Shown piece by piece: positions 13,996-42,639 of a stretch of 64,000 nt of DNA. The notes beneath the pieces were generated by a model, which was not told the origin of the DNA, did no database searches, and saw only the letters and a list, made by a program, of their open reading frames with translations. The stretch spans positions 1,426,001-1,490,000 of the forward strand of contig NW_026570227.1 of assembly GCF_019649055.1 (NCBI RefSeq), read 5' to 3'. The stretch comes from Paramacrobiotus metropolitanus (lineage: Eukaryota; Tardigrada; Eutardigrada; Parachela; Macrobiotidae). The position numbers and the translations under genes were made by a program. Within the stretch, counting starts at the first letter, position 1. Each line of letters starts with the position of its first letter.

Positions 13996-14203
13996 ATCCG
14001 CGCTCGGCACTTAAATACTGGAAATTATGAATATTTTTAAAGGATACATAAGCATGCGGGAAATGATAAAACTTATTGAAAATTAGGAAAGTATGGAAAA
14101 TGTGATTTGTTTTAGATTAAGACTGAAATCGCATCTACGCTTTCGCAGTCGGGTTCTATAAGGAGTATTACCGTTCCAAGGTTTTAATTTTTTACATTCT
14201 GAC

Positions 14204-14690
14204 GTTCTGATGTTACACGTTTTGATTTTCTGATGTTCTGATCTTCAGGCGGTTTTAACTTCTGACGTTCTTACGTTCTGATGTTTTCTTATTTTTCACA
14301 TTCCGACATCCTGATGTTCTGACGTTCTAACTTTCTGATATTCTGACATTCTGACGTTTTGATGTTTTTAATTTTTCACGTTCTGACGTTCTGATCTTTT
14401 GACGTTCTAACGTTCTGATATTCTGGCGTTCTAATGTTCGGACTTTTTCTTATTTTTTACATTCTGACATTCTGATGTTCTGACGTTCTAACGTTCTAAC
14501 GTACGTTCTGATATACGTTTTTAATTCACCTTCTGACATTCTGATGTTCTAACATTCTTACGTTCTGATATTCAGACGTTCTGAATTTCTGACGTTTTTG
14601 ATTTTTCACGTTCGGATTACCTGACGTTCTGCCTTTTGACGTCCTAACTTCTGATGTTTTTACGTTCCGACGTATAGATACTGTACAGGC
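14204..14690. repeat. Octamer minisatellite (GACGTTCT), degenerate block
   Basis: Repeats of the 8-bp unit GACGTTCT with variants AACGTTCT, GATGTTCT and GATATTCT, broken by TTTTTAATTTTTCAC spacers. The 8-bp period is not a multiple of three and stops abound in all frames, so it is non-coding. Confidence 0.9.
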
Positions 14691-14769
14691 GACATACTGG
14701 GCGATGTACTTTACCTTTTATGGACGTTTACGTAATTTGCTGCTCACATAATAATTTTTCATCTACAGT

Positions 14770-15095
14770 GCATTAAAAAAGAAGTATTTATGTATCCGCT
14801 ATAGTCTCCGTGGTTACAGTCATTGTGTTAAGGACTTTTTATAACTGTGCTGTGAATACAGTACTTACTTCTTCGAGTGCTCTTTACGTTTCCTATACTT
14901 AAGACCTGGTGAAACCATCTTCTGACCACTGGTTAATAAAAACAAACAAAAATCTGTTGGCACACCTATGGAAAATATGGAATTTTTTAACCTCAAGCTG
15001 GACTTAAACTGACCACGCGTTGACGAGCTTATTGAAACGGCGCAAAAATACGCTTTGGTCGGTAAGCTTGTATGAATACAAGGTAGCCTCGCGCA
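14770..15095. repeat. Direct repeat DR1, copy A, with an ODC-exon-like relic
   Basis: About 300 bp nearly identical to 16,098-16,400 (for example CCGCTATAGTCTCCGTGGTT and CTTCTTCGAGTGCTCTTTAC). Near 15,010-15,062 it encodes MEFF..KL..RVDELIETAQKYA before a GGTAAGC donor, resembling exon 1 of ODC copy 1 (MDLF..EKLTRDTLIQTAIAHKYD). A TGA interrupts the frame. The minisatellite follows each copy's left side, so the whole unit is about 1.3 kb. Confidence 0.7.
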
Positions 15096-15171
15096 TCCGC
15101 GCTCGGCACTTAAGTACTGGACAGTATTGGCATTGTTTTGGAAAGGTCATTAAAAATATATGAAGGCTGAC

Positions 15172-16060
15172 GTTCGGAATTTCTGACGTTCTGACAATTT
15201 TAATTTTTCACGTTCTGAAGTTCTGATGCTCTGACGTTCTAACGTTTGACGGTCTTACGTTCTAACGTTCTTACTTTATGACGTTTTGCCCTTCTGACGT
15301 TATGACGTTCTGACGTTCTGACGTTCTAACGTTCTAACGTTCTGACGTTCTAACGTTCTGACGTTCTAACGTTATAACGTTCTGATTTTATGACGTTCGG
15401 ACGTTCTAACGTCTAACGTTCTCATGTTGTTACTTTATGACGTTCTGACGTTCTGGCTTTCTGACGTTCTAACGTTCTGACGTTCTAACGTTATAACGTT
15501 CTGATTTTATGACGTTCTGACGTTCTAACGTTCTGACGTTCTGGCGTTCTGACGTTCTGGCTTTCTGACGTTCTAACGTTCTAACGTTATAACGTTCTGA
15601 TTTTATGACGTTCTAACGTTCTGACGTTCTAACGTTATGACGTTCTGACGTTCTGGCGTTCTAACTTTCTGACGTTCTAACGTCATAACGTTCTGATTTT
15701 ATGACGTTCTAACGTTCTGACGTTCTAACGTTATAACGTTCTGATTTTATGACGTTCTGACGTTCTGGCTTTCCGACGTTCTAACGTTCTGACGTTCTAA
15801 TATTATAACGTTCTGATTTTATGACGTTCTGACGTTTTAACGTTATAACGTTCTGATTTTATGACGTTCTAACGTTCTGACGTTCTAACGTTATGACGTT
15901 CTGGCTTTCTGACGTTCTAACGTTCTGACGTTCTAACGTTATAACGTTAGAACGTCTAACGTTCCGATGTTTTTACTGTATGACGTTCTGACGGTGTTAC
16001 ATTCTGACGTTCATACGTATTGAATTTCTGACGTTTTGACGCTCTGAAATACGTATGGAC
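15172..16060. repeat. Octamer minisatellite (GACGTTCT/AACGTTCT), regular block
   Basis: About 0.9 kb of near-perfect 8-bp units alternating GACGTTCT and AACGTTCT. There is a higher-order pattern in which GTTATAACGTTCTGATTTTA recurs every 60-130 bp. The alternation creates many AACGTT palindromes. Confidence 0.92.
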
Positions 16061-16097
16061 TTTGCATGACGTAATAATATATAATTCTACCTAAAGA

Positions 16098-16400
16098 GCA
16101 AGTATTTATGCATCCGCTATAGTCTCCGTGGTTACAGTACATTATTGTGTTATTGGCTTTTCATAACTGTGCAGTGAATACAGTACTTACTTCTTCGAGT
16201 GCTCTTTACGTTTCCTATACTTAAGACCTGGTGAAACCATCTTCTGACCACTGGTTAATAAAAACAAACAAAAATCTGTTGGCACACCTATGGAAAATAT
16301 GGAATTTTTTAAGACCAAGCTGGACTTAAACTGACCACGCGTTGACGAGCCTATTAAAACGGCGCATAAATACGATTTGGTCGGTAAGCTTGTATGAATA
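16098..16400. repeat. Direct repeat DR1, copy B, with an ODC-exon-like relic
   Basis: Second copy of 14,770-15,095. The relic (about 16,290-16,385) reads MENMEFFKTKLDLN, a stop, then PRVDEPIKTAHKYDLV up to a GGTAAGC donor. TAHKYD matches the AHKYD of ODC copy 1 exon 1. Confidence 0.7.
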
Positions 16401-16537
16401 TAAAGAAAAGATATAAAGATAAAGACCTGATCTTCTTCCTTTGCTATAAAAGGCACATAGCCACTGCACAACGGTGCAAAGTGTTGACTATCTTTGAGTG
16501 ACTTGTCGCTGTACGTGAGCTCCGCATCAGGTCTTAC

Positions 16538-17579: not shown

Positions 17580-20335
17580 ATGTTTACCCGCGAGAAAAGA
17601 ATTCTGCAGAACATAAAGGTACACGTTTAGTTCTTTTTCTGACTGTGCTGCTTTAGTTGTCGAGAACTGTAATATCAATTTTGATTAGGTGGTCCATTTG
17701 ATATGTCTGTTCAGCCTGGTTACCCACACTTGCCACTCCTCGGCCGCGTCAAGCAGTTCCCTGTACGGCTACGGTAACTACACACAGGCACGCGCTGGAG
17801 GAAACTGTCTGGCATGCGCCACCTGTGCGCCGCCCTGTGCGGCTGCCACACCAGCGGCGGCCACGCCCACCTGCAGCAACAATCCCTGTTACTTCCGCTC
17901 CCTGCCCTTTGCCTGCTCCGCGGAGCAGTGCGCCGATTATGTCAGCCAATCGGGCGGTGAGTGGCAACGAGGTTTAAAGGTTTGTAGGTGTACCTCAACT
18001 TCCCCATGGGAATTTTCCATAGGGAATTTTTTCTCTTATCAAATTACGCCTTGTCTCCGTAATTAAGTCCCCCATAATACAACCATCTTTACACGGATTC
18101 CCCCCTTTTCATATAAATTCCCTTCCTGATGGTCTTGTGAACGTGGCAACCTGGTTATACGCTAATGGGTAAAAGCAGGTTCTCCGAAAAACAGAGGCTG
18201 GCAATCTTTACGAAACATGACTAAACCAGATGGGATGAAAATTCATACGGCATTTCCCTGTTTTGTCAGAGAACGGGAAGGCGCTGATTGTCAACCTGCC
18301 TGCGGAGTTGTGCGTGACCACGTGCCAGTTGGAGGCGTGGAGTAGCGAGGGGACACCGTTGTACCGTTTCGGTGTAAGGCGTTTGCGTCTTGTGTAATAA
18401 CAAAATATTTCCCTGACAGTTTTCGCAAGAATATTCTGTATAGGCCTGCTCGCGCTACGACGATCTGGCGGTGCAGATCCGCGACTCGATCAGCGCCGGT
18501 GTGGAGGACGCCGTCTACCCGACGCTAACCTGCGCGAACGACCCGTGTTTCGTGGCCTACGTCGACACCATCCTGTATACCGCTGCAGCTATGGTCCCGC
18601 CGATTGAGTACAACCAGGACACCGTGCTGCAGTGTACGTTGACCCTCAAGGACAAACAGCGCAACGACGTGCTGCTGGCCACGACGCAGTTTCGGGTGAG
18701 TGACCTTCATCGGCTGGTGCTTAAGGGAAGTGGGCCGGTACGTGGTACCAAATTCGTGTACATGCACGAAAACGTTAACTTTTGCGCACTCCCAAATACA
18801 TTTTTGTTTCGGTTTATGACATTCTGCAGCCAGAAGGTTTGTATACACTAGCGGGAAAACCGTTTGTGCGCGCAACATCCGGTTCGGAAATTATGGCAGT
18901 TAGAAAATTCCAAAAAGTTTAAATGCATTCAGGTGTACCAAAAGTCTCATTATGGACCGATCTCTCTCAAATTTTGCATGGAAATGCACATAGCCACGAA
19001 GAACGTTTTACACCGATTTAATGTTCTAGCATGTTTTCCAAGTTTTAAAATGAATTTCAAAACTTAAAAAATTATTTTTTAAATTTGAAAAAAATCGTGG
19101 ATGTCTGGATCGGTGTAAAAACGATCTTCATGGCCATCTGCATTTACGTGCAAAATTTGAGGGAGATCGGTCCATCAGGCTTTTGGTATACTTGAATGCG
19201 TTTAAATTTTTGGAATTTTCTGACAGCCATAACTCTCGAAATGGATGTTGCGCGCACAAACGGTTTTCAGACCAGTGTGTACAAGTCGTCTGGCTACAGA
19301 ATGTCATAAACCGAAACAAAAATGTATTTAGAAGTGCGCAAAAGGTAAAGTTTTCGTGCATGTACACGAATTTGGTACCATGCGCCGGCCCACTTCTCTT
19401 AAAGCGAAGTGGCCCGGTGCATGCCCACTATCCCCATCATGTACAAGCACGGAAGCTTTCGCTTCCGTGCCTTCTTTAACAACCTTCTGTAGCTAAATAA
19501 TTTGGATACCTAAAGAAAAATATATCTGAGAACATTTTTTGTACTTTTGCCATCTCGCTTTGGGGATGTGCCAAGATGTGCCAGTATGTTACTATGTAAG
19601 CCTTCTCTAAAGTTTGCACGAAAACACATATACGTACCTGAGTATGAAGATCGTTCTTCCAGTGAACCATGGAGTTAGAAGTTCTTCAAATTCTAAAATA
19701 AATTTCGAAAAGTTTACGTTTATATTCTTTACAAAATGAAAAAAGTTGGGTCCCTGCTCCAGAACTGTATGCGGTTTTTGAAGACAGCTGGTTTAAATTG
19801 AAATTCTTTGGCCCAGCGGACTGCGTTTAAGCTTTTCGGAATCTTTTTTGTCGATATAACTCTTCAACAGAATGTTGCGCGCACAGATTAACGCCAATGG
19901 ACACTAATCATTGATTCATTGGTTGCAGAAAGGCATAAGACAATACAGAATAAGTGTTTGGGAGTGCTCAAAAGAGAGATCTCGCATGTACACGAATTTA
20001 CAATTACAGTAACAAAGTGACGTACCGGATAACTTCCCTTACGCTTGTTGCTAGTCCTGTCTCCCGAAATAACGAAGAACCATTGTGGCGTGCTGCCGTA
20101 GATTCTTGTTCGGGACGATATTGGGAATGCTGTTAGTTCCTTTATAGACGATACTGCGGTTCTGTGGTGCCTCACTGTCGTGCAGCACCCGGCTGCTGAT
20201 TTGGTGCCACTGCCGTCACGCTTCTTGCGGTCATCAATAATCCAGTACAAACCGTTGTCGTTGTTGCAGATGAACATCCAGTATGTTGATCCTGCCGATT
20301 GTGGTTATTACGAAGAAGAAGGCACATGGAAGTAA
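17580..20335 (+). CDS. Cysteine-rich secreted protein CRS, copy 2 (five exons, intact)
   Basis: Predicted 242-aa protein of unknown function. Exons: 17,580-17,618, 17,689-17,956, 18,270-18,373, 18,444-18,695 and 20,270-20,335 (stop TAA); phases agree at every junction. It starts MFTREKRILQNIK, followed by a hydrophobic segment VVHLICLFSLVTH that could act as a signal or signal anchor, then a Ser/Ala-rich stretch and a Cys/Pro/Ala-rich part (CATCAPPCAA). The rest has evenly spaced cysteines: LPAELCVTTCQ, PTLTCANDPCFVAY, VLQCTLTL and DPADCGYY. I recognise no domain; the cysteine pattern and leader suggest an extracellular disulfide-bonded protein. Intron 4 carries FB1. Copy 1 at 8.9-10.8 kb is broken; this copy is the functional one if either is. 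Confidence 0.75.
18708..19413. mobile_element. FB1 foldback element, most complete copy, in CRS copy 2 intron 4
   Basis: A roughly 700-bp near-palindrome. The left arm starts TTAAGGGAAGTGGGCCGGTA, followed by GTGGTACCAAATTCG. The right arm ends GGCCCACTTCTCTTAA in inverse complement. Inner motifs include TTTTGCGCACTC, CCGTTTGTGCGCGCAACATC, TTCAGGTGTACCAAAAGTCT and GTTTTACACCGA. It has no coding capacity. It is the reference copy for recognising the others. Confidence 0.9.
19590..20020. mobile_element. Degraded FB1-related copy
   Basis: Traces of FB1 order: GTATGAAGATCGTTCTTCCA (inner motif), AATGTTGCGCGCACAGATTA, GTGTTTGGGAGTGCTC and CATGTACACGAATTTACAAT. It lies just after the complete copy, within the same CRS copy 2 intron. 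Confidence 0.5.
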
Positions 20336-33780: not shown

Positions 33781-34688
33781 AGGTCGAAGTATTAATATGT
33801 TAGAACCGTTAACTGTCAGTGTTTTACTGCTGGCTGGAAATGATGCGCATGTCGAATACCGTTTACAGGCGGCAGATAAACTATTTCCACCCGCTGGAGG
33901 CCTTCCATCCTGCCATGGCACTACCACTGGAAGCACCCTCCTCTTCCTACAATATCCTGTGCCATCACACCCGCTACTCCCCGGCCCTCGCCGCCTTCAT
34001 GCCGCCGGACACCGTCTACATCACCATCCTCCGAAAACCAGCCGCCTTGTTCGAGTCCGCCTACAGCTTCTTCAACCTGGCCAAACGCTTCGGCGCCAAT
34101 CTCACCACCTTCCTCCAGCACCCCCGAAAATACTACACCTTCCGCACGAACACCATCTGGAGCCGGTTCGGCCGCAATCCCGCCATGTACGACGCCGGGT
34201 TGGAGGTCCGCCACTTCGACAACGACACGGCCATTGCAGCGAAGATCCGGGAAATGGACGAGCGGTTCGACCTGGTAATGCTGGCGGAGGAGATGGAGGC
34301 GTCGCTGGTGCTGCTGCGGGAGCTCCTCTGCTGGGAGTGGCAGGACGTTGCGACCTTTCGGGTCAACGCCCGTCCACCGGCCATGCTCACCGCACTGACC
34401 GAAACGGAGGTGGAGAAGATTAACGAGTGGAACCACGCCGATACGTTGCTGTATGAGCACTTCCGCCGGAAGTTCCAGGAGCGGAAGGTGCGGTTTGGGG
34501 CGGAGCGGTTGGCCGCGGAAGTGAAGATCTTGAAAAGCGTCACCGATTACTGGCGGAGTGAATGTCGGGGAGCATTGGTCAGTAGGGATGAGAAGGCCGT
34601 GACCACGTGCCTGAACCTCCAGCGACACGAAATAATCTACACGGATCTGTTGCGCGCTCGGCAGCATCCACTCCGACATCGCCATTAA

Positions 34689-35647: not shown

Positions 35648-37354
35648 TCAGTTGCAGGTACTGCGGGAACCTGAACACTCCGCGTTCCATAGAACGTACA
35701 GATCCTTCTGTCCCATTTTGTGTATGGCTGTATACTTGTCCTTTAAGCACGACTGTGCTACCGCCATCGTTTTCGTCTTCTGCGTTATCCCGGTGATATG
35801 CCGCAACGGAATCCCACTGGAGTTCGCCACTAATCCGGTGACGTAGACATCGTCAAGAAAACTATAAGGAATAACTAGGCTGGCGTATAAGACCTTCCCC
35901 AATAACCGTGTCGGCGCGATTATCAAGAATCCCCAAATGTACACGGGATACCGGTCCTGGCGGTACTCTTCCCGCGGCGAATAGTACTTCCCATTGGGGT
36001 TCCGCTGCGGGAACCACGCATCGTTGAGGATCTCCTGCGCGTACACATGTCCGTAGAACGCATCAGGCGATTGGTTCTTCAGGGTGTCGTACAGTTTGGG
36101 AATGTTGAGATACGCATCGTCATCCACCCGGGCCACGAACGTGGAGGACGGGCAGTAGGCCGCGCACCACTGGTACATGTGCAGCGTCTGAAGTGTTACA
36201 TGGTACCAAGTTCGGGTACATCCACGAAACCTTTCGCTTTCTGTAAGGTCTTTAATACCACTTCTTGCTAGCGCACTTTGGCGCACTCCTCAGCACTTTT
36301 TGCATTGTATTATGACATTCTGTAGCCAAATGATATGTATACACCAGCGTAAAAACCGTTTGTGCGCGCAACATTCGGGTTAGAAAGTTTCGGCTAAACA
36401 CCTACAGGGGTTTCAGGAGCCTCATTATGGACCGATCTTCTTTCGAACTTTGCAAATAAACGCATATTACGATGTAAGGTCATCCTTACCCCGAACCCTG
36501 GTTACACTACCTTTCAAATTTTAAAAGGACTTCCACAATATTTCCTCAATTTTTGGAATTCATTTTGAAACTTGTACACAGTTACAGAACCCTGGTTCGT
36601 GAGCAAGACCGATCTGCATACGCATGCGCATTTTCATGCAGAATTGGAAAAAGACCGGCTCACAGAGAGACTTTTGGTACACCTGATTGCATTTAAACTT
36701 TTTAGAATTAATGCAGCCATAATTCCCGAACTGTTTTCTAGCCAATATACTGTAAACAAACATTTGGCTACGAATTGTCACAAAAACATGCAAAAAAGTG
36801 TTTGAGAGTGCGGAAAAGCGAAATTTCCCGAGCATGCACAAGAATTTGGTACCATGTACCGAGTCACTTGCCTTGATTGTCGAACTGCGGAAGGTATCAT
36901 CGAACTGGTTGGATTGCAAAAGGTCACCATGCTCCCGGGCTTCTTCGTCCAGATGCTGTTGCGTGCTGTGGGAATGCACCCGTCCCAGCATGAACAACAG
37001 ACGGGTGCGGCACGCCGCTCCGGCCAGGGACCCCCAGGTGCGCCGGATCATGGCCCGGACGCCGGCGTTCCGCGGCGCCGTGATCACCGCGACCACGAGG
37101 AACGTGTCCGGCGCACAGGGTTGCGGAGAACTCTTATACTGCTGCTGCACAGATCCGGGGTCCACAGCGAATATTCCGGGATCGGCAAGAGCCGGGTTCT
37201 GGGTTCTCCGGTTTTCAACGAGAACCACATAGTGTCTCTGCGAATCCAGCAATAGCATACAGGATACGAGGAACGCGAGCAACAGTGTAATGCATAAGGA
37301 CCACTTGGAATTCTTTCGGGTACTCCACACTGTGGGTCGCCGCACACGCCACAT
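35648..37354 (-). CDS. Beta-1,3-galactosyltransferase-like (GT31), two exons
   Basis: A 340-aa type II Golgi glycosyltransferase; the family transfers Gal or GlcNAc from UDP-sugar in beta-1,3 linkage. Exon 1 is 37,354-36,872: basic cytoplasmic tail, TM anchor (SLCITLLLAFLVSCMLLL), stem, then FLVVAVITAPRNAGVRAMIR with RRTWGS, LLFMLGR and HGDLLQ. Exon 2 is 36,187-35,648: TLHMYQWCAAYC, the metal-binding RVDDDAY, PVYIWGFLIIAPT and the DDVYVTG motif (usual EDVYVG). The reading frame is intact and the junction joins TIK to TLHMYQW. The intron uses a GC donor (AAG|GCAAGT) with a normal CAG acceptor, and it is almost exactly one FB1 element. The exact acceptor sugar cannot be told from sequence. Confidence 0.9.
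36188..36871. mobile_element. FB1 copy forming the galactosyltransferase intron
   Basis: Terminal arms face inward from both splice sites. The donor side reads GCAAGTGACTCGGTACATGG, against GGAAGTGGGCCGGTACGTGG in the intact FB1. The acceptor side ends CATGTAACACTTCAG, against the FB1 end CCATGCGCCGGCCCACTTC. Inner motifs (ACCGTTTGTGCGCGCAACAT, GACTTTTGGTACACCTGA) are present. Confidence 0.85.
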
Positions 37355-39736: not shown

Positions 39737-40882
39737 ATGCGCCGTTATGCCTTCTCGCTGACCACGGTCTTTTACCTAACGGCGCTGTCCCTCCTCTTCG
39801 TCTACCATCAGCACCACCCTTCAACGGTTGCACCGACCGCCCACCACTGCACGCCCCGGCGCAACATCGTCCTCCTGAAGACGCACAAATGCGCCAGCAG
39901 CGCTGTGCAGAATATCTTCCTCCGCTACGGACACACCCACAACTTGACCTTTGCCCTACCCTACCGGATACCGGTATGTAATATATACATACTACACTAA
40001 AAGCAAATGTACGGCGGACGCATTTTTGCACCGGCGGACAGTTTGTCCGGCTTAACGACAAAAGCGTTGGGAGGACGGTTTTGCCGGTAACGCGTGTGCT
40101 TGTAACGGTTAATGCCTTGACGACCCCATAAAGCATGCATTTACACGTTTGTACGCTACAGGCAGCGCGTCAACTATTTCCACCCACTGGAAGCCTTCCA
40201 TCCCTCCATGGCACTACCACTGGACGCCCCCTCCTCGGCCTACAACATCCTGTGCCACCACACCCGCTTCTCCCCGGCCCTTGCCGCCCTCATGCCGCCG
40301 GACACCGTCTTCGTCACCATCCTCCGCCAACCGTCCGCCCTCTTCGAATCCGCCTTCAGCTTCTTCAACCTGCCTAAGCGCTTCGGCGCCAACCTCACCA
40401 CCTTCCTCCAGGATCCTGAGCGCTACTTCACCTTCCGCCCCACCATCGTCTGGAGCCGGTTCGGCCGTAACCCCGCCATGTATGATGCCGGGTTGGAGGT
40501 CACCGACTACGACAACGACACGGCCATCGCAGCGAAGATCCGGGAACTGGACGCGCGGTTCGATCTGGTGATGCTGGCGGAGGAGATGGAGGCGTCGCTG
40601 GTGCTGCTGCGGGAGCTCCTGTGCTGGGAGTGGCAGGACGTCGTGACCTTTCGGGTCAACGCCCGTCCGCCCGCCATGGTCACCGCCTTGACGGAAACGG
40701 AGGTGGAGAAGATTAACGAGTGGAATCACGCCGATACGTTGCTGTATGAGCACTTCCGCCGGAAGTTCCAGGAGCGGAAGGCACGGTTTGGAGCTGAACG
40801 GTTAGACGCGGAAGTGAAGACGTTAAAAGGTCACCGAACATTGGCGGAAAATGTGTCGGGGACCATTGGGCAACTTGGATGA
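39737..40882 (+). CDS. Galactose-3-O-sulfotransferase-like, copy 2, C-terminally truncated
   Basis: Exon 1 is 39,737-39,973: TM anchor around LTTVFYLTALSLLFVY, then the intact PAPS loop IVLLKTHKCASSAVQN. Exon 2 is 40,166-40,882: YNILCHHTRFSP, TVFVTILRQPSALFESAF and CWEWQDVVTFRVNARPP. The predicted protein is 317 aa. Relative to copy 1, exon 1 has a 7-bp insertion (ATACCGG, 39,967-39,973) at the donor. The frame is kept only if the acceptor moves 4 nt to GGCAG|CGC. One base is missing near 40,827-40,832, so the last about 63 codons (to 41,021) fall out of frame and the ORF stops at 40,882. The catalytic regions are present; whether the truncated enzyme works is unknown. Poly(A)-like AATAAA at about 41,097 and 41,194. 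Confidence 0.75.
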
Positions 40883-42639
40883 GGAGACTGTAACAACGTG
40901 CCTGAATCTGCAGCGAAACGAACTCATCTACACGGATTTGTTGCGTGGCCGGCAACATCCTGACAAACATCCCTATTTTGCGAGGCAGTTGCCGGGTGCC
41001 GTCAAAAATATTGTGTTATAGTTTTTGACATTAGAAACACAATTTAAAAGGTTGTGGTGTGTGGAGTTAGGAAAGTTGCGTGATTTGGGCAAAGCGGAAT
41101 AAAATAAAAGGTCACAATGTGGCCAAATCTGAAGCTCGAGTATGCCAGTGTACCTGTATCGGGACGCCAGAAACAAGAGGTTATGAAGATCGAATAAAGA
41201 TATTTTTATTACATTTAAGCATATAGTGTCCCCTTAGTTTCTAAAAGGAAACACAAACTGGTCATTTTTTCCCCGGCGGTATCGTTACTTTACTCAGTAC
41301 ACAAAAAGAGAGTGATCAATGAATTGCAGCTGAAATTATTATTTTCAGTTCTCTTCGCTTAATCATCTTTCGTTTGTTCTCGATAAGATCCGCCCTACAA
41401 CGATTACGCAAAGTCGTTATAGCATTACGATTCAGGATCGCTATATGGCTGGATCCCTGTACGCCACGACCCCAATCCAACCGTATCGGCCACAGAACTA
41501 CCGCTTTCTTAAAACAGCGCATGCATTAGTCTTGCGATAATGAAGGGAAACGCTGCCGCAGTTTTAGGCACTTTGCCGGGCAGAAGTAAAATTGCGGAAG
41601 GGAGTGATTTTGGTTGTTTTTGGAACTTGTAACCGTAGTATGTAATCATTGTTGTTAAACACGAAGGAGACCAATTAAACATTACACGTGTGACGTATCG
41701 GCCACTGTTATCGCGGATCGAGGTCTCCGCTCGCCCCGCTCATTCGCCGCAGCGGAAGTTATGCAAGGGTGCCTCGACGTTCAACTCAGAGACCGTCCTT
41801 AATAACTTCCGCTGTGGCTCGAACCCCTGATCGATTCTCAAGGTATCGCGCGCATACCGGCTGTCGATAACACATCCCACGATCGACACCGCTTCGCCGA
41901 CAATCCCAACCCAGATACAACACACATGGGTGGGTGCTGATTGCGGTTACAACTGAAAGCGCTGGTGTTCGACTTAATCCAGCAGGATAACGGCAAAAGT
42001 TTCAATGCAGAGGCCGAACTTTCAATATCGATTATTGTGGCGAACGTTTAATTGTGAAAATGACCGGACAACTGCTAAATGAACTCAAGACCTGAAGGCT
42101 ACAGCCGCCAGCTCTGTCAAGCAAAGTGCAAACTGAACAATCATCGGAGCAGACAATTATGTATACGATAAGAATTATTATTAGGAATGGAATCAGAGTG
42201 AGCGATCGAATCGGTGTTGCAAAGCAGCGGTATATACGAGGCAACAACAACAACAACTCGTATAAGCAGCAAGTGACGAGCCAGACAAGGCATATCAGAT
42301 GGAATGAGCGGGCATATATCGCCCTTATCACTCAGTAGCGAGCGAGGATATCGCATGCACATCAGAGCAACCGTGGCTACCGGGGGTATCGGGGCAAAAA
42401 TCTTCTATGAGAGGAACCATAATTTGTGCTACTATATTACAAGTCGCATCCGGACAACTGGGTTTGCTGCACTGAAATTTGACATGCGACATTCCGCCGC
42501 GAAGACACCACGCTGCAGAAAATAGTGGCACCTCCGTCTGGGACATATGGCTTGAGACATTTGACCTTTGCCACACTTCGCCGCAAAACGAACACCACGC
42601 TCTTCGCTTTCACAGTTTTTTGTTTCTTTTTTTTCAAAC
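40883..42639. other. Intergenic region; former C-terminus of the sulfotransferase, then no gene
   Basis: Bases 40,830-41,021 still encode the old C-terminus in another frame (TVTTCLNLQRNELIYTDLL). Beyond that I see no gene. A weak FB2 trace (ATTGTGAAAATGACCGGACA) lies near 42,050. Confidence 0.5.

Follow-up and report, generated by a model that had tools for sequence, protein, structure and literature searches.

A predicted GC-AG intron in a tardigrade galactosyltransferase gene corresponds to one copy of a TTAA-flanked foldback element

The galactosyltransferase gene and its interruption

The window analyzed here, a stretch of 64,000 nucleotides from Paramacrobiotus metropolitanus with a GC content of 44.3%, carries a GT31 galactosyltransferase gene on its minus strand (35648-37354; Pfam Galactosyl_T). 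One 684-bp stretch (36188-36871) interrupts the coding region of this gene and separates coding exon 1 (36872-37354, taken from the first methionine of the open frame as the putative start) from coding exon 2 (35648-36187, through the stop codon). On the gene strand, the stretch starts with GCAAGT and ends with CAG, and we predicted it to be a GC-AG intron; it is called a single intron here with respect to the two coding exons. GC donors get spliced in animals. These coordinates, the GC donor and the CAG acceptor had already been given in a preliminary description of this DNA, and they can be read directly from the sequence. The same description held that splicing would restore the GT31 frame. 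In agreement with this, the predicted spliced protein matched Galactosyl_T with 109 bits (profile positions 3-193), compared with 63.6 bits for exon 2 by itself, and the predicted junction returned the sequence of a sister gene that is described below. The best solved relative was B3GALT5. If left unspliced, the frame would meet its first stop 103 codons into the intron, which contains eight in-frame stops.

The gene is flanked by a duplicated stretch (33864-34669 and 40157-40960; 86% identical DNA), the first copy of which has an open frame that we take to be a sulfotransferase from its appearance. The window also contains a degenerate tandem repeat array (14172-16403), in which matches between stretches are approximately 68-80%.

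Identity of the intron and the element family

A genome search with the 684-bp intron gave at least 100 matches among those listed, the intron itself included (scoring covered 40 of 1,242 first-look candidates, and each palindromic copy counts as two matches). The long matches showed 66-70% identity and ran from query positions 87-110 to 631-682 of 684, and the outer pieces of the intron (query 10-54) were 84-92% identical to element copies. In gene orientation, the outer parts of the 5' and 3' arms of the element lie at 36815-36858 and 36197-36240, respectively, and are 77% complementary. At neither end does the intron have a base outside the element plus its target-site duplication (TSD). 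In other words, the intron consists of one element copy, the ends of which lie at the predicted splice sites.

A complete reference copy, with both flanking TTAA inside its coordinates, is found in the same window at 18721-19402; it is palindromic, with an 82.7% self-match in inverse orientation. The ends of the element read GGGAAGTGG[G/C]CC or GGGATTTGGCCC. In genome-wide searches of 533 contigs (169,799,020 bases), this end pattern was found 1,043 times (536 + 507) with up to three mismatches, and the reversed-pattern control 0 + 1 times. A first sample, from which the window intron, the 59th row, was excluded, had TTAA at both flanks in 47 of its 58 rows, and a second sample had it in 10 of 20 two-ended copies. 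The first sample kept at least six rows without a second end (L025, L046, L052, L058, L059 and L060); the second comprised 55 regions from the first 100 of 456 listed ends, of which 35 were dropped because a second end could not be recognised. Given that the first copies were the best-scoring or the nearest to the pattern, young copies are over-represented.

Two element consensus sequences of 679 bases were built from 45 rows (35 + 10), and the median difference of the rows from their own consensus was 7.1% and 6.2%, respectively. The intron showed a divergence of 22.6% from the first (35-row) consensus, in an alignment with 108 gap columns, and the difference between its arms is 37%, compared with a median of 9.8% in the family. 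These values indicate that the window copy is old, or a member of an old subfamily.

Some copies showed particular arrangements. At L062 (C9:1879012-1881060), a tandem pair of copies has one TTAA in common, and at L083 (C153:177300-181300) a piggyBac element abuts the end of a half copy. The element and its near flanks are alike at L009 (C2:923588-924934) and L015 (C13:51135-52482), on two contigs and in opposite orientation, which may reflect a duplication, a larger repeat or an uncollapsed haplotype.

Splice boundaries and target-site duplication

The preliminary description placed the donor one base from the element sequence and considered the intron to be bounded by the inverted ends. The first point agrees with our comparison. 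The family end reads TTAA|GGGAAGTGG and the gene strand of the window TCAA|GGCAAGTGA, and the donor AAG|GCAAGT (36866-36874, minus strand) begins at element base 2, the last exon G being element base 1. Element base 3 is C in the window and G in the family, which places the donor one G>C change from the family sequence AAG|GGAAGT. The second point holds in that the element runs from edge to edge, but the acceptor AG would not come from the element. The element's own 3' end (...CCACTTCCC) has no AG, and the intact element sits between TTAA duplications. A family copy in a TTAAG target would give ...CTTCCCTTAAG|ACG, and the window has ...CACTTCAG|ACG; the alignment places TTAAG opposite TTCAG after a 10-bp deletion, for which another reading is two deletions of 5 bp. 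Both readings make the final A of the duplicated TTAA, together with the G of the target, the most likely source of the acceptor AG.

Neither TSD copy at the window intron is now an intact TTAA. We took the exonic copy, TCAA (36873-36876, minus strand), as TTAA altered by the synonymous change ATT>ATC, and the intronic copy, TTCA (36189-36192, minus strand), as TTAA with one change, the last A of which would be the acceptor A. Removal of the predicted intron would join ...ACAATCAAG to ACGCTGCAC and give back (A)TTAAG ACG, which encodes Ile-Lys-Thr, with ATT>ATC presumably a later change. Among the 20 in-frame GT/GC-AG pairs in the scanned ranges, only the predicted pair yields the sequence of the sister gene. 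The canonical GT alternatives include TCG|GTACAT with the unchanged acceptor, which would add four residues, and the pairing of CAA|GTGACT with an acceptor further inside, CTTACAG|, which would add 19.

Uninterrupted paralogs and selection on the exons

The sister gene (L069, contig C77), which is 74% identical to the window gene over 344 aligned codons, is uninterrupted at the site and reads TCC ACG ATA AAA|ACG CTG (STIK|TLH). We fetched 18 paralog loci from 44 Galactosyl_T matches and found that 15 of them, the sister and 14 others, are open across the site; two of these 15 (L067 and L074) have TTAA there in the same register. Neither L077 nor L080 aligned at the cut-off, and the frames of both read through the corresponding stretch. 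In a tree of 17 rows, the window gene grouped with the sister (99/97) and next with L072 (97/95), which is also uninterrupted and sits on a long branch marked as unsure by the tree program. The genes closest to the window gene, as represented by the paralogs of one genome, therefore have no intron at this site. Because we found no synteny between the window and the sister locus beyond the gene itself in the 16 kb compared, the sister gene could itself be a retrocopy.

A distant paralog, L076 (contig C3; 34% identical), has an inferred 613-bp intron, AAAG|GTAAAT...GATAG|GT, which is shifted by one nucleotide in the downstream direction relative to the window site and is in phase 1, compared with phase 0 in the window gene. 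The similarity of this intron to the element was not beyond chance. The preliminary description had regarded an unrelated intron at the same position in relatives as evidence against an origin from the element. An intron of this kind does occur in this genome, one nucleotide away in a distant paralog, and counts in part against that origin. In view of the uninterrupted genes closest to the window gene, and of a window intron that has no base beyond the element, we read it as an independent intron.

Comparison of the window gene with its sister gave a dN of 0.150 and a dS of 1.09. The respective values were 0.209 and 1.00 for exon 1 and 0.101 and 1.20 for exon 2 (dN/dS approximately 0.08), indicating that both exons are under purifying selection. 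In the tree, the branch lengths were 0.089 for the window gene and 0.26 for the sister. In a neutral simulation with 2,000 runs at each K, exon 2 remained without a stop in 10%, 4.6%, 1.8% and 0.75% of the runs at K of 0.10, 0.15, 0.20 and 0.27, respectively, the low-K end being weak evidence alone. Given that the exons are open and selected and that the unspliced frame contains stops, the GT31 gene has very probably been in continued use since the insertion, which would require splicing.

Search for further element-derived introns

We also searched for the strict end pattern with different bases at the donor position, and found 456 ends with G or A (229 + 227; control 0) and five with C or T (control 1). 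A gapped end pattern matched three times: at the window end, at an additional element end and at a site that is apparently unrelated. The open frame directly upstream of the six donor-bearing ends was 182 codons at the window intron and at most 43 codons at the others. On this basis, L004, L005, L006 and L146 were rejected as introns, as was the end at C1:3722169, which has a perfect CAG|GTAAGT donor and an upstream frame open for only 28 codons. L005 adjoins a likely exon on the opposite strand.

When the flanks of the 58 other rows of the first sample were joined at the empty site, one frame of at least 150 codons was obtained, at L012 (179 codons); shuffled flanks reached this length in 0.6% of cases, so that approximately 0.3 would be expected among 58 rows. 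The 20 further two-ended copies from the 55 regions gave no such frame, the longest being 121 codons. The open-frame screen thus yielded no exact intron from the other sampled copies, which are a partial sample favouring young copies, and the count stands at one element-built intron, on the basis of strict donor patterns searched genome-wide and a flank screen of the sample. The term 'introner-like' in the preliminary description, if taken to mean an intron family, found no support in this sample, which is not a whole-genome count.

At L012 (contig C8), the element interrupts a member of a gene family that is receptor-like in our reading (35 matches, its own two pieces included). The element has GG at the donor place, neither GT nor GC, and the gene has an in-frame stop where a paralog has Trp. 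The sole other exonic insertion in the sample thus has no donor and appears to sit in a broken gene. Pfam analysis of eight frames (six across element sites and two flanking exons) gave one sub-threshold match, and none for L012. An 89% DNA-identical paralog of L012, L081 (C132:48600-49500), has a 1-bp frameshift at the insertion site of L012, which might be an excision footprint or chance.

Proposed origin of the intron

We propose that the intron was very likely born when a TTAA-targeting foldback transposon landed in an exon of the GT31 gene, and that it is removed by splicing as predicted. The birth of a single intron from a foldback element, as put forward in the preliminary description, is well supported by the edge-to-edge identity with the element, by the TTAA model, which gives the sister sequence, and by the selection on both exons. 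The transposon, a Kolobok-like DNA element that is non-autonomous and close to palindromic, with a TTAA target and inverted repeats ending in GG, would have inserted at TTAAG in the conserved Ile-Lys-Thr codons of an intron-free GT31 gene, after the window gene had split from the C77 sister. The product would have been TTAAG|GGAAGT...CACTTCCCTTAAG|ACG, in which excision between the bars leaves the exact target. A G>C change at element position 3 would then have produced the donor AAG|GCAAGT, and the duplicated TTAA with the target G would have supplied the acceptor; the element copy would have aged while both exons were under selection. Since most element ends have no GT/GC donor, the donor probably arose through a later mutation.

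We also considered the possibility that an older intron was already present and took up the element, after which deletions removed what was left of the old intron sequence up to both splice sites. The 34%-identical paralog L076, with its unrelated intron one nucleotide away, would be in line with such a history. However, the window intron has no base other than the element and TSD at either end, and with the sister and the next branch uninterrupted this explanation needs the intron to have been lost several times, to have slid by one nucleotide and to have undergone two deletions that were both exact; therefore, we consider it improbable. It seems even less probable that the element represents an introner family and is the source of many introns here. 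Although its copy number is high and its ends are one substitution short of a consensus donor, a long open frame lies behind only one of the six donor-bearing ends found, and the open-frame screen of a partial, young-biased sample revealed no second exact intron. Least probable of all is that the insertion turned the GT31 gene into a pseudogene without any splicing. Exon 2 is open throughout with its dN/dS of approximately 0.08, the window branch is shorter than that of its sister, and a neutral exon 2 would be stop-free in only 10% to 0.75% of runs, a result that is weak alone at low K, although the exonic copy at L012 does lie in a gene with an in-frame stop.

It is possible, but on the whole unlikely, that elements with a TTAA target and GG ends are pre-adapted as introns, and that the window intron is one survivor of a process repeated here and in other hosts. 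If this speculation is true, each insertion at TTAAG would give AAG|GGAAGT...CTTCCCTTAAG|, a sequence that is a single change, G>T or G>C, away from a consensus intron, and intron removal would restore the frame exactly in both orientations, because the element is palindromic.

Comparison with known systems

In the DNA-transposon introners described by Gozashti et al. (2022; PMC9860276), a non-autonomous element becomes a whole intron, as we propose for the window. Some of these families have terminal inverted repeats (TIRs) and 4-bp TSDs like the present element, GC donors occur as in the window intron, and mRNA length is unchanged in most families, as predicted here. However, introner families were retained there only with at least four introns, whereas we found one, and most ends of the present element have no GT/GC donor (456 versus 5). 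Among animals and land plants, the same authors report having found introners in two groups only, both of them animals. Single intron gains by transposon insertion, of which 35 events in Oryza, Drosophila, Oikopleura and Zea are tabulated in a review (PMC3443670), likewise involve an exonic element removed by splicing, as predicted here. In the main model of that review, an AGGT target supplies both splice sites, whereas here the TTAAG target would supply the acceptor.

Our literature search found no report of introners in tardigrades or of MITE-derived new introns with a TTAA target. The proposed event is of a known kind, with a variant in the target site. To our knowledge, there are few animal introns for which the source element, the target site and the empty sister sequence are all readable. 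If RNA confirms the splicing, the locus would represent a tardigrade intron gain that has been traced, and would provide a testable rule for the way in which TTAA-targeting elements can become introns one mutation after insertion.

Affiliation of the element

Judged from its TTAA target and termini, the element resembles Kolobok-type MITEs. Kolobok elements are characterized by a TTAA target and RR ends (PMC6004289); the present element has TTAA duplications (47/58 and 10/20) and RR terminal bases, its ends being GGGAAGTGG or GGGATTTGG. According to the same source, the TIRs of one frog subfamily (A2) begin with AGGAGAAGG and AGGAAATGG, which are close to the GGGAAGTGG of our element. In contrast, the T2-MITE motif is AGGRR, compared with GGGAA or GGGAT here, and the remaining frog TIRs in the table of that source are unlike those of the element. 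We linked no transposase to the element.

We also read six piggyBac transposase loci, out of a larger set of piggyBac matches, and rejected piggyBac as the source of the element ends at these loci. The TIR pairs proposed at three of the six (CACTCGC, CCCTATAG and CYCTTAATGG) are unlike the element ends, and the best ungapped match of the 21-base element end had at least eight mismatches at all six. THAP domains gave 150 matches scored genome-wide, none of which was linked to element ends. A dense run of THAP domains was observed on contig C17 at approximately 1.20-1.41 Mb, in long open frames of up to 1,310 aa with several domains apiece.
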